From Acutalibacter sp. 1XD8-36 (GTDB lineage Bacteria; Bacillota; Clostridia; Oscillospirales; Acutalibacteraceae): 48,502 bases of DNA. Below the pieces are notes generated by a model. The model worked only from the letters and a program-made list of their open reading frames with translations, made no database searches and had not been told where the DNA came from. The stretch spans positions 1-48,502 of the forward strand of contig NZ_QZDU01000012.1 of assembly GCF_009917525.1 (NCBI RefSeq), written 5' to 3'. The translations under genes were made by a program, and so were the position numbers. Below are positions 7,339 through 18,954 of the stretch, in pieces; position 1 is the stretch's first letter; every line of letters starts with the position of its first letter.

Positions 7339-7384
7339 TGGTTGCGGGGACAGGATTTGAACCTGCGACCTTCGGGTTATGAGC
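7339..7384 (-). repeat. Attachment site: duplicated 3' part of tRNA-fMet
   Basis: These 46 bases match 18878-18923 with a single difference at 7350. In the minus direction they run from the anticodon loop (CAT anticodon included) to the CCA end of the initiator tRNA, then stop abruptly. A duplicated tRNA 3' end, 11.5 kb from the intact gene with an integrase beside the intact copy, is the signature of integrase-mediated insertion. This is the distal att site of the IME. Confidence 0.92.
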
Positions 7385-7498
7385 TGTGGTGAACCGATCT
7401 TTCCAGCCATTTCTAGGCGTTTCTGCCCCTTTTTGCTCGATTTTCTGGCCAAAACCCGAAGGTCTGACCCTGTCCAGTCCACTGAGTTTTTCCGGTTC

Positions 7499-7518
7499 TG
7501 GGTCAGCTTATGGGTCAG
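7499..7518 (+). repeat. Paired TGGGTCAG repeats, left arm of IME
   Basis: TGGGTCAG occurs at 7499-7506 and 7511-7518, again 12 bases apart, about 115 bases inside the left att copy. A third near-copy in inverse orientation (CTGACCCT) lies at 7474-7481. The second repeat overlaps the stop codon of the nucleotidyltransferase gene. Confidence 0.6.
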
Positions 7519-7814
7519 ACAGCGATCCCGGTTTCACGGACAGTATGGAAAAAGCCGCTGTCAGAATCGGCAGCAGTCAAAAGGACAGGCTCGATATCCG
7601 CATTGATTTTTCTGGAAAGCCTCCATAACAGAGCGACACTGTCCAAGTAGTCGCCTGGAATATCATCAACAATAACGGCAATATCAATATCGCTATTTTC
7701 TTTGGAAGTCCCTTTTGCCTGAGAGCCGTAAAGGACAACAGACTGAACCTTGAGTTCTTCACGGACCCCGTCAGCATACTTTTTTGCCAGCTTTAACACT
7801 TCGTTTTTATCCAT
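7515..7814 (-). CDS. Minimal nucleotidyltransferase (MNT) of an MNT/HEPN pair
   Basis: The 99-residue protein has the minimal nucleotidyltransferase motif GSQAKGTSKENSDIDIAV at about residues 30-47, with the two catalytic Asp of SDIDI. In MNT/HEPN toxin-antitoxin pairs the MNT partner neutralises the HEPN protein, in studied cases by transferring AMP groups. GGAGG lies upstream of the ATG at 7814, and the start overlaps the end of the HEPN gene by 22 bases. The stop lies within an integrase arm-like repeat, so this gene marks the extreme left end of the IME. Confidence 0.85.
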   Translation of the reverse strand: MDKNEVLKLAKKYADGVREELKVQSVVLYGSQAKGTSKENSDIDIAVIVDDIPGDYLDSVALLWRLSRKINADIEPVLLTAADSDSGFFHTVRETGIAV

Positions 7815-8188
7815 GACAATAATTCCTCCGTTTTACGGATCAAATCTTCACACCGGGATTCGGTTAGGGAACGTAAGAGCTTTTCTTTATTGAGGGGATA
7901 CCTTGCCTCCACATTTAGCGGGCTTAGAACATCCAAAAGCGAAAGCTGATCTTCGCACATTTCAGTGGAAATCTTCGACAGGTTGGCAAGGCGCACCAGG
8001 CTGTGGATATATGGCAATTCGCCGTCAGGTTCCCGATGGACAAAAACTGCCTTCAACCCCTTTTCAATCGTCTGGTGGCACATAAATCCCACATATAGAA
8101 AGCGTTTTGTTTGCAGCATCGCTTTTGCTGTTTGCAGGTCATAATCCGCGCAGTCCAGCCAATATGCTGTTTTTGCAAATTCATTCAT
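7793..8188 (-). CDS. HEPN-domain protein, probable toxin partner of the MNT gene
   Basis: The product has the HEPN pattern: a helical N-terminus (WLDCADYDLQTAK), the helix around EKGLKAV, IHSLVRLA in the middle and EARYPL near residue 100. The RxxxxxH RNase motif of many HEPN toxins is not evident, so RNase activity should not be assumed. I chose ATG 8188 because GAGG lies 7 bases upstream; a TTG at 8203 would add five residues. It is co-transcribed with the MNT gene. On a mobile element such pairs usually act in maintenance or phage defence. Confidence 0.8.
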   Translation of the reverse strand: MNEFAKTAYWLDCADYDLQTAKAMLQTKRFLYVGFMCHQTIEKGLKAVFVHREPDGELPYIHSLVRLANLSKISTEMCEDQLSLLDVLSPLNVEARYPLNKEKLLRSLTESRCEDLIRKTEELLSWIKTKC

Positions 8189-8221
8189 TGAAAAGCCTCG
8201 CAAAGTCCAGTTTACTGCTCA

Positions 8222-8244
8222 TAGTATACCACAAGGTATACGAA
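8222..8244 (-). promoter_or_regulatory. Promoter/operator palindrome upstream of the HEPN/MNT pair
   Basis: GTATACC and GGTATAC flank ACAA, a perfect 7-bp inverted repeat. In the minus direction it contains TATACT, a good -10 box about 35 bases before the HEPN start. No strong -35 box is visible. A palindrome over the -10 fits autoregulation by the toxin-antitoxin complex, which is inference. Confidence 0.55.
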
Positions 8245-8264
8245 AAAGAAAGGTTTTTTTAAAG

Positions 8265-8296
8265 TCAAAATTTGCGCTGCATAAACAAAGAAAGCG
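8265..8296 (+). repeat. Dispersed module-boundary repeat, copy A
   Basis: The sequence begins TCAAAATTTGC, followed by GCTGCATAAACAAAGAAA. Copies B (13667) and C (17498) share the TCAAA-TTTGC-TGCAAAACAAAGAA pattern. Each contains a short palindrome TTTGC-NNT-GCAAA. Copy A lies between the HEPN promoter and the gene-fragment mosaic that precedes the exporter. Confidence 0.65.
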
Positions 8297-8317
8297 CATA
8301 TTCATTTTGCCACGCAG

Positions 8318-17492: not shown

Positions 17493-17497
17493 TTACC

Positions 17498-17529
17498 TCA
17501 AATTTTGCGGTGCAAAACAAAGAATACGG
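17498..17529 (+). repeat. Dispersed module-boundary repeat, copy C
   Basis: TCAAATTTTGC, GGTGCAAAACAAAG and AATACGG follow in order. It starts 6 bases after the relaxase stop and precedes the integrase, marking the border between mobilisation and integration modules. Confidence 0.65.
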
Positions 17530-17620
17530 TTTGGGAAAAACCAGAAAAAGTAAGAAAAATGTCAGTGGACATAGGCGGGTACTGTGTGGTAGTGTTGGTA
17601 GTCAGAAAGGGGGCCAAGAT

Positions 17621-18769
17621 ATGGCGAAACGCAGAGCAAATGGCGAGGGCAATATACGCAAGCGCAAGGACGGCCGCTGGGAGGGCAGGTACACTGCAGG
17701 CCGTGATCCGGAGTCCGGCAAGGTGATTTACAAGAACGTGCTTGGTAAGACTCAAGCAGAGGTCAAGGAGAAACTGGCCAGGGCCATTGAGGACAACAAA
17801 GGCTTGGATATCGTTAAAGCGAGTCAGTACACGGTAGGGCAGTGGATGGACGTATGGTTTGAGAACTACGCCAAAATCAAGGTGCGGCCATCTTCACACA
17901 AAACATACAAAGGTTATATTGAAAATCACATTAAGCCAAGCATCGGCAAAATCCCGCTCAGTAAGCTGACTACGCTGGAAGTGCAGGCACTTTACAGAAA
18001 GTTGCTCACCAACGGTAGGGTAGAGCGGACGGAATCCAAACAGCAGCCCAAAGGTTTGAGCGCAAAAACGGTACGGAATATAAACCAGGTGATTTCGTCC
18101 GCAATGGAACTTGCCAAAAGCCAGAAACTTATCTTAAGCAATCCCACAGACGGTTGTGCCCTACCAAAGGTTGAACACCAGGAGATGAAAACACTGACCG
18201 CTGACCAGTTGGCCGCTTTCTTCCGCGAGGCTAAGAACAGCGGCGTGTTCGAGATGTACTACCTGGAGCTGGCAACAGGCTTGCGCCGTGGCGAACTGCT
18301 GGGCCTGAAGTGGGACGATATCAACCTGGACATAGGTGTTATCCAAGTGAAACGGCAGGTAGCCAGGATCGATGGGGAAGTGGTGGAGGCTCCGTTGAAA
18401 ACGAAAAATTCCTACCGCACGCTGTCCATCGGAGCAGACGCGATAGAAATTCTTAGAGAGCAGAGGAGCAAAGTGGCTGGCGAGTATGTGTTTCCCTCGC
18501 CCAACGGCGGGCCAATTTCGCCGGACAGTGTCCTGCATATGCTACACCGGGTACTGGATAGAGCCGGATTGCCACCCTTGCGTTTTCATGATTTGAGGCA
18601 CACGTTTTCAACGCTGGCACTCCAAAATGGAGTAGACATCAAAACGGTGTCGGGTATGCTGGGCCACTACAGCGCAGGATTTACTCTGGATACCTACGCA
18701 CACGTCACCACCGCCGCACAGAAAGAGGCAGCCAAGACGATGGACAACTTACTATCCGGCAGCGTTTAG
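17621..18769 (+). CDS. int: Tyrosine integrase of the fMet-targeting IME
   Basis: The 382-residue protein has an N-terminal arm-binding domain (GRWEGRYTAGRDPESGK, about residues 16-32), a SAM-like core-binding domain (about 65-160) and the catalytic domain with ATGLRRGELLGL (first Arg), HDLRHT (His and second Arg), LGH and the nucleophile in LDTYAHV. The open frame begins further upstream at 17510, but ATG 17621 has AGAAAGGGGG at the correct distance and begins the family-like MAKRRANGEG. It lies 108 bases from the CCA end of the tRNA-fMet gene, pointing at it, the usual arrangement for the integrase of a tRNA-borne element. Confidence 0.93.
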   Translation: MAKRRANGEGNIRKRKDGRWEGRYTAGRDPESGKVIYKNVLGKTQAEVKEKLARAIEDNKGLDIVKASQYTVGQWMDVWFENYAKIKVRPSSHKTYKGYIENHIKPSIGKIPLSKLTTLEVQALYRKLLTNGRVERTESKQQPKGLSAKTVRNINQVISSAMELAKSQKLILSNPTDGCALPKVEHQEMKTLTADQLAAFFREAKNSGVFEMYYLELATGLRRGELLGLKWDDINLDIGVIQVKRQVARIDGEVVEAPLKTKNSYRTLSIGADAIEILREQRSKVAGEYVFPSPNGGPISPDSVLHMLHRVLDRAGLPPLRFHDLRHTFSTLALQNGVDIKTVSGMLGHYSAGFTLDTYAHVTTAAQKEAAKTMDNLLSGSV

Positions 18770-18792
18770 AAGTACCCGGTCGTTTCCCCGTA

Positions 18793-18812
18793 TGGGTCAG
18801 CGCATGGGTCAG
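18793..18812 (+). repeat. Paired TGGGTCAG repeats, right arm of IME
   Basis: TGGGTCAG at 18793-18800 and 18805-18812, 12 bases apart, between the integrase stop and the att core. Same spacing and orientation as the pairs at 7254 and 7499. Confidence 0.65.
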
Positions 18813-18845
18813 GTAAGGGAAACAAAGGGAAAATGCAAAATGAAA

Positions 18846-18878
18846 CCCCCGGAAACCCTAGTGTTTCCGGGGGTTTTT
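18846..18878. terminator. Bidirectional terminator between integrase and tRNA-fMet
   Basis: CCCCCGGAAAC at 18846-18856 pairs with GTTTCCGGGGG at 18863-18873 and is followed by TTTTT on the plus strand. It can end integrase transcription, and on the minus strand it follows the tRNA 3' end with a TTTCATTTT tail. Confidence 0.85.
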
Positions 18879-18954
18879 GGTTGCGGGGGCAGGATTTGAA
18901 CCTGCGACCTTCGGGTTATGAGCCCGACGAGCTACCGAGCTGCTCCACCCCGCG
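18878..18954 (-). tRNA. Initiator tRNA-fMet (CAT)
   Basis: The 77-base gene folds as a complete cloverleaf with encoded CCA and anticodon CAT. Two initiator marks are present: the first acceptor position is an unpaired C-A, and the anticodon stem has three consecutive G-C pairs (GGG/CCC) below the loop CTCATAA. The 3' 46 bases are duplicated at 7339-7384, so this gene is the insertion target of the IME, which rebuilds its 3' end on integration. Confidence 0.95.

Follow-up and report, generated by a model that had tools for sequence, protein, structure and literature searches.

A conjugative element predicted to split tyrosine-recombinase genes at their H-x-x-R-H codons, nested in a stack of mobilizable elements at the initiator tRNA gene of Acutalibacter sp. 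1XD8-36

Introduction

Integrative and conjugative elements (ICEs) with a triplet of serine integrases are known from streptococci, in which the ConjTn1549/Tn5252 elements target hsdM, traG and mutT (PMC4701971), and from the Tn1806-like group, whose nesting in ICEs of the ICESa2603 family via snf2, hsdM and methylase genes was shown by conjugation (PMC12942858). Integrative and mobilizable elements (IMEs) with serine integrases disrupt traG, maff2 or snf2 of resident ICEs (PMC5357655), and the multi-targeting large serine recombinases (TndX-like, with DUF4368) form one clade that uses many genes sharing a short site (PMC10083194). Tandem accretion of IMEs, ICEs and cis-mobilizable elements (CIMEs) at one attachment (att) site is also well described (PMC5357655, PMC5704250). 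Here we analyse a 48,502-nucleotide stretch (the window), which is the entire contig C3 of the Acutalibacter sp. 1XD8-36 assembly (G000); it appears to hold an IME at the initiator tRNA gene (element B), the tail of a second such IME and, in the integrase gene of the latter, the right end of an ICE from a family with a serine-recombinase triplet.

This ICE family works like the known triplet-serine-integrase ICEs, and it is the target that differs. Like the ConjTn1549/Tn5252 ICEs, it combines a VirD4 conjugation module and a serine-recombinase triplet at one end with insertion in a protein-coding gene, but the target here is the catalytic motif of tyrosine recombinases from many unrelated families (PMC4701971). 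It shares with the Tn1806-like ICEs the triple serine integrases, the nesting in another ICE and the use of one enzyme family for several site-sharing genes, whereas those elements target methyltransferase genes and have been followed in conjugation; the target gene found here is not a methyltransferase but a tyrosine recombinase, and is known from sequence alone (PMC12942858). The IMEs of traG, maff2 and snf2 likewise prey on a conserved gene of another mobile element, but have single integrases and conjugation genes as target (PMC5357655). Many target genes with a common short site are a further likeness to the TndX-like recombinases (PMC10083194), although a Pfam scan found no DUF4368 in the three recombinases of the ICE in genome G185 (see below), and the passages of PMC10083194 compared here do not name tyrosine recombinases among the targets. 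In our searches of open-licence PMC papers, preprints and supplements excluded, we found no report of the Arg-His codons of tyrosine recombinases as an attachment site. The tRNA array resembles known accretion in the serial use of one att site by related or unrelated integrases, and departs from it in its tRNA-Met target in Oscillospirales, in having five units in one array and in that one unit is itself invaded (PMC5357655, PMC5704250).

Results

A probable ICE end inside an integrase gene

The left part of the window contains the following features.

1..7057: right part of the nested ICE, the remainder lying beyond the contig start
52..1601, minus strand: VirD4-type coupling protein, split over two frames (561-1601, T4SS-DNA_transf 2.4e-22, and 52-747)
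1598..2530, minus strand: ArdC-N domain protein, just above the curated cut-off
2514..3230, minus strand: DNA cytosine methylase, apparently partial
3364..4152, minus strand: PAPS-reductase-like protein of the ICE, 66% to the G185 ICE protein
5148..6089, minus strand: ParB of the ICE (ParB_N 3.5e-20), 51% to the G185 ICE ParB
6086..6862, minus strand: ParA of the ICE (AAA_31 7.8e-58)
6973..7059, plus strand: right terminal sequence of the ICE, 83% to an 85-nt end module
7058..7230, plus strand: integrase 3' remnant of the second tRNA element, 57 codons, cut at the Arg-His codons
7060..7061: putative crossover dinucleotide CA, the first two bases of the His codon, from the invariant CA in the profiles
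7299..7338: terminator-like hairpin, read from the sequence, between the integrase remnant and the att copy

The remnant is 93% identical to residues 363-419 of the element B integrase and corresponds to positions 334-389 of a profile hidden Markov model (HMM) of 390 positions, which we built from 11 recombinases; none of the 22 integrase matches listed for the assembly could supply the missing 5' part at about 90% identity. The genes upstream of it in the window (ParA, ParB, PAPS-reductase-like protein, VirD4) are ordered as they are in the G185 element, whose VirD4 is matched in two tblastn pieces. When the junctions were aligned, the integrase remnants in the window, G017, the fifth unit of the G022 array (see below) and locus L096 all began at an identical base, preceded by one conserved sequence; the integrase that follows this sequence in G001 is from a different family, although its cut lies at the same codon. 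The DNA left of 7058 is, as judged from these alignments, the predicted right end of a conjugative element inside the integrase gene of the second IME, at its Arg-His codons, and the window shows three layers: element B, a second tRNA element of which only the tail is present, and the ICE nested in this second element. The original prediction had taken the left integrase end to belong to a second, related element; it is a 57-codon remnant, whereas the right integrase is complete, with 419 amino acids. The same prediction proposed two successive insertions at the tRNA gene, of which repeated insertion stands, but the DNA left of 7339 is better read as an ICE end in an integrase gene.

Survey of ICE ends

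In a first search, we compared an 85-nt stretch of the end sequence with 300 genomes of the family and obtained 17 distinct places in 14 genomes, 10 of them running straight into the 3' part of a tyrosine recombinase. Such 3' parts start at HMM position 334-335 as a rule, and two 5' parts, on contig C19 of this genome and contig C84 of G001, end at position 336, with one conserved left-end sequence after both. For an unbiased test, patterns composed only of element sequence were run against 394 genomes of the order; the right-end pattern was found at 27 places in 20 genomes and the left-end pattern at 16 places in 15, while a control with reversed patterns gave no matches in the same 394 genomes. 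All but two of the right ends (25/27) continue into a tyrosine-recombinase 3' part at HMM position 334 or 335, and 12 of the 16 left ends are preceded by a recombinase 5' part ending at position 335. The IMG/VR viral contigs, which include putative prophages, behaved similarly: six of 10 right ends lie at a recombinase, two have less than 10 bp left and two are not at recombinases, and 19 of 22 left ends lie at a recombinase, two retain 9 and 12 bp of flank, which read LRH and DLRH, and one does not lie at a recombinase. The recombinases concerned are diverse, with distinct flanks in 33 of 36 left and 30 of 32 right ends.

One IMG/VR contig (IMGVR_UViG_3300010261_000108, 55,882 bp; L227 and L245) spans the whole element and keeps just 9 and 8 bp of the target at its two sides, which is the pattern expected if one element sits in different integrases of one community.

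Whole elements and their serine recombinases

Both ends lie on one contig in G185 (51 kb), G639 (58 kb) and G455 (5.4 kb, a deletion form). In order to compare the split halves with one intact homologue, we used MT836101.1, which we obtained by searching plasmid and phage proteins with the 5' half from G185. In these three genomes the 5' part extends to residue 369 of MT836101 (to 364 when compared with the element B integrase) and the 3' part starts at residue 368 or 369 (or again 364), leaving no gap; one recombinase gene has been split and no residue lost.

The G185 element encodes ParB, the PAPS-reductase-like protein, an HTH_36/DUF6017 protein, VirD4, a TraG-like (TraG/VirB4-like) ATPase, a relaxase and three serine recombinases. 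The relaxase, VirD4 and ATPase all lie between its ends and have orthologues in G639, as do most proteins of the element. An orthologous serine-recombinase triplet, A-B-C, is present at one end in G185 and G639, and at least two of its members in G455, G405 and G621; in G185 all three have Resolvase, Recombinase and Zn-ribbon domains. The triplet is located immediately inward of the left end: of the 26 left ends with at least 600 bp of sequence, 24 have a homologue of one or more of its members (in L237 and L249 this is recombinase C, 1.2-2.5 kb inside), and L185 and L198 lack one in the stretch examined.

Attachment site and proposed mechanism

The target reads CAY GAY YTN MGN CA in the profiles, with degeneracy at the wobble positions. 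The CA is invariant at both junctions, preceded by GG on the right and followed by CCC on the left, and we infer that it is the crossover of a serine recombinase with a two-base crossover, the recombination presumably being performed by the triplet. H-x-x-R is the second catalytic box of tyrosine recombinases. The 5' part retains the first Arg and the Lys and the 3' part retains the Tyr, so that neither half should work and the split integrase would no longer be functional.

We propose that tyrosine-integrase IMEs use the 3' end of the initiator tRNA gene as their target; every IME brings a copy of that 3' end which restores the gene and leaves the old one at its far side, and because the old 3' end stays there, IMEs can pile up in series. 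We further propose that a conjugative element with a serine-recombinase triplet, whose complete relatives measure about 50-60 kb, targets the catalytic H-x-x-R-H codons of tyrosine-recombinase genes and crosses over at the CA of the second His codon, splitting the gene so that its 5' and 3' halves come to lie at the ICE ends. On this model, the integrase gene of the second stacked IME has received such an ICE, and window positions 1-7057 form the right end of that ICE.

Element B

The other IME of the window is element B, which comprises the following features together with its target gene.

7339..18923: element B, IME, att to att, from its recurrence in G001 and G005 and its gene content
7339..7384: att copy bounding element B on the side away from the integrase, with one mismatch in 46 bases
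7385..7540: conserved terminal sequence of tRNA-Met elements, far end, 80-99% in several other units
7515..8203, minus strand: MNT nucleotidyltransferase (7515-7814) and HEPN protein (7793-8203), a pair of toxin-antitoxin type
9226-11016 and 11004-12800, plus strand: two ABC transporter genes, cargo
12932..13402, plus strand: MerR-type regulator, cargo
13701..14672, minus strand: DUF6076 protein, common to several stack units
15043..15405, plus strand: HTH_36 protein (1.5e-12), possible replication initiator
15730..16137, plus strand: conserved small protein upstream of MobL, without a Pfam family, with homologues in other stack units
16134..17492, plus strand: MobL relaxase (MobL 3e-27)
17510..18769, plus strand: complete tyrosine integrase, 419 amino acids (Phage_integrase 1.8e-28)
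18878..18923: att copy inside the intact tRNA gene, integrase side of element B
18878..18954, minus strand: initiator tRNA-Met (CAT), the target gene, from a tRNA call and BLAST

Three G-C pairs in the anticodon stem and C1-A72, the hallmarks of an initiator tRNA, are readable in the tRNA-Met sequence, and a BLAST search of the gene against its own assembly returned a single full-length tRNA-Met(CAT) copy. As originally predicted, the last 46 bases of this gene recur at 7339-7384 with one mismatch, at position 12 of the 46; alignment and BLAST agree on this, and the match has an E value of about 3e-16 within this genome and is therefore not a chance repeat. That an integrase 3' end and a similar terminator stand to the left of each att copy was also correct: the wider repeat pairs 18597-18896 with 7058-7357 over 300 nt at 83% and spans the integrase 3' end, the terminator and the att, with a hairpin resembling that at 7299-7338 near 18844-18876. 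The 46-mer has four copies in the assembly, at C3:7339, C18:6437, C32:277716 and in the intact tRNA gene.

Between its direct-repeat att sites element B carries its own integrase and relaxase, and no conjugation pore gene was found among the 12 open reading frames (ORFs) scanned, smaller ORFs falling outside the scan. The same unit lies att to att beside the tRNA gene of G001 (L047; 94.4% over 11,621 aligned positions, with a near-identical HEPN/MNT pair, 99.9%) and between two att copies on another contig, in another neighbourhood, in G005 (L112; 94.4% over 11,589). This att-to-att recurrence bears out the earlier view that the att copies bound an integrated element, and in the relatives we saw neither the 7339-7384 copy without an element nor 7385-18880 conserved in synteny as ordinary chromosome. 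On these comparisons, element B is a complete, discrete unit, predicted to be mobilizable, and the proximal one of the stack. Its integrase has public relatives at 38 loci in Oscillibacter, Flintibacter, Neglectibacter, Acutalibacter and others, and because a tRNA-Met 3'-end core lies at most 300 bp beyond the integrase 3' end in 30 of them, we regard this integrase family as dedicated to the initiator tRNA; the eight loci that lack such a core (L069, L070, L079, L080, L087, L091, L092 and L095) include several fragments.

Stacking at the initiator tRNA

Of 29 genomes of the genus, 11 have one or more additional copies of the tRNA 3' end (42 bases or longer, at least 91%), in eight of them on the same contig as the intact tRNA gene, and two or more tRNA-Met cores occur in nine of the 38 public loci. 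In G022, a single contig of 3.8 Mb, five further copies of the 3' end, all in the same orientation, lie 14 to 81 kb from the intact tRNA gene. The five units of this array have an integrase of the element B type or another, parts of a relaxase and differing cargo; the fifth has lost MobL and most of the integrase gene. In G022 as in the window, att copies thus follow one another in the same orientation and are separated by elements. The initiator tRNA-Met locus is a stacking hotspot that has been hit repeatedly, and the G022 array, the copies across the genus and the public loci all accord with the original prediction on this point.

In the first G022 unit (L040, 7444-12587), other genes totalling about 5 kb interrupt MobL, which is another case of nesting. 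For two large genes of the fifth unit we considered and rejected a recombinase-in-trio or Tn554-like origin; they encode a cytosine methylase and an HATPase protein.

A clean empty tRNA site with conserved flanks was not found. Five loci without a nearby 3'-end copy were inspected, and in four of them a recombinase gene lies directly at the tRNA; a search of 22 loci with the proteins of the C32 left flank showed no adjacent synteny. A terminator match of 47 nt in G018 (87%) is a hint that C32:277716 may be the chromosomal edge. A chain of contigs C32, C18 and C3 is possible in principle, but we claim no order, the MobL/integrase end expected of an element A not having been located.

Several further features were noted. 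In G028 (L055, 4907-6367) a serine-recombinase-like ORF ends within the tRNA-Met 3' end, and an unrelated type of recombinase may use the same tRNA-Met. On contig C18 of this genome (L007, 227-4112), a flagellin gene, a 725-amino-acid protein without a Pfam family and an APS kinase lie beside a tRNA-Met att and HEPN/MNT; the flagellin is possible element cargo. Beside tRNA-Pro (46162-46237), towards the right edge of the window, lies the end of a tyrosine integrase gene (46298-47566, minus strand) that probably belongs to a second tRNA-borne element. Degenerate G-rich direct repeats of 33 nt, in six copies, lie inside a coding region at 30044-30688.

Discussion

A number of observations count against the reading of the window as an ICE landed in an integrase gene, or against its generality. 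The right end in the window reads TATATCCTATG where the consensus has TATACCGTAAG, and the exact pattern misses it (0 matches in G000); this end was assigned by alignment. Among the 17 places found with the 85-nt query, six do not run into a recombinase (three being tRNA-terminator look-alikes) and one is a contig end. In the wider survey, the left ends L194, L197 and L198 have no HMM hit, although their last codons read HDLWH, HDLRH and HDLRH, and the right ends L176 and L177 and the left ends L199 and L248 are not at a tyrosine recombinase; L177 and L199 both come from G407 and probably represent a secondary site. L229 and L232 are probably chance matches, and the matches are in part non-independent, G001 supplying six of the 27 right ends and flanks being shared in L230/L233, L231/L234 and L244/L252. 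A joined-end pattern, as in an excised ICE circle, had no matches in IMG/VR. In this genome the ICE body lies in other contigs and its linkage to the window is presumed, recombinase B has no good orthologue in C7, and the only left ICE end found, on C19, abuts another integrase (48% to that of element B) than does the right end (93%).

The assembly's only left and right ICE ends, at position 98 of C19 (L119) and at window position 7057, thus adjoin halves of two different integrases, and the two halves here are therefore not one gene. The C19 integrase represents a different subfamily, and in G001 this subfamily is found next to a tRNA-Met att. Contig C7 begins inside a recombinase C homologue (65%, N-terminal part), and a homologue of recombinase A (56%) comes next. 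A likely history, still hypothetical, is that two stacked IMEs were each invaded by an ICE and that recombination between both ICEs then caused a deletion.

The least improbable of the alternatives, contradicted by the data and still very improbable, is that the left unit is a decayed tRNA element (a CIME) which lost its integrase by ordinary deletion, the ParA/VirD4 DNA being its own body. Decay is common in such stacks, for example in the fifth G022 unit, and the terminator and att follow the remnant exactly as in element B; however, the break falls at the same base in several genomes, against the same upstream sequence and in unrelated integrases too, the different integrase families exclude a single ancestral deletion, and matching left ends cut at the same codon exist. 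We give marginally less credence to two successive tRNA-directed insertions, as first read, the left one complete with its own integrase: there are two att copies and two integrase ends, and stacking is real in relatives, but the left integrase has 57 of 419 codons, the end of a foreign element adjoins it and its 5' part is absent from the window, which refutes this account in its present form. The least plausible account, a recombination hot spot or an assembly chimaera with contigs misjoined at repeats (integrase 3' ends, the upstream sequence), would suit the many contigs that stop at most about 130 bp from element ends and the heterologous integrase halves of this genome, but three elements are whole on single contigs of three genomes, with the halves abutting, and the same junction recurs in unrelated assemblies and in IMG/VR.

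Stacked tRNA IMEs together with an ICE that lands in the H-x-x-R-H codons of tyrosine recombinases are, in our judgement, very likely the explanation of the locus. Somewhat less firmly, but still with good confidence, we expect that this ICE lineage, by landing in these codons, the best-conserved point of an entire enzyme superfamily, can enter nearly any integrative element or prophage, needs no host gene, disables the recombinase of its host element, and so parasitises and traps mobile elements.

Attachment sites are usually seen as particular host genes; the site proposed here is a protein motif common to thousands of competing mobile elements, and would therefore offer a landing pad wherever other mobile DNA occurs. 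The arrays at the initiator tRNA gene, apparently the sole such gene in the assembly, illustrate the extent that stacking can reach. The split recombinases would account for a class of 'truncated integrases' in gut genomes and would give serine recombinases a defined, degenerate site, and the ICE would provide a direct and testable example of a mobile element that inactivates the integrase of another.

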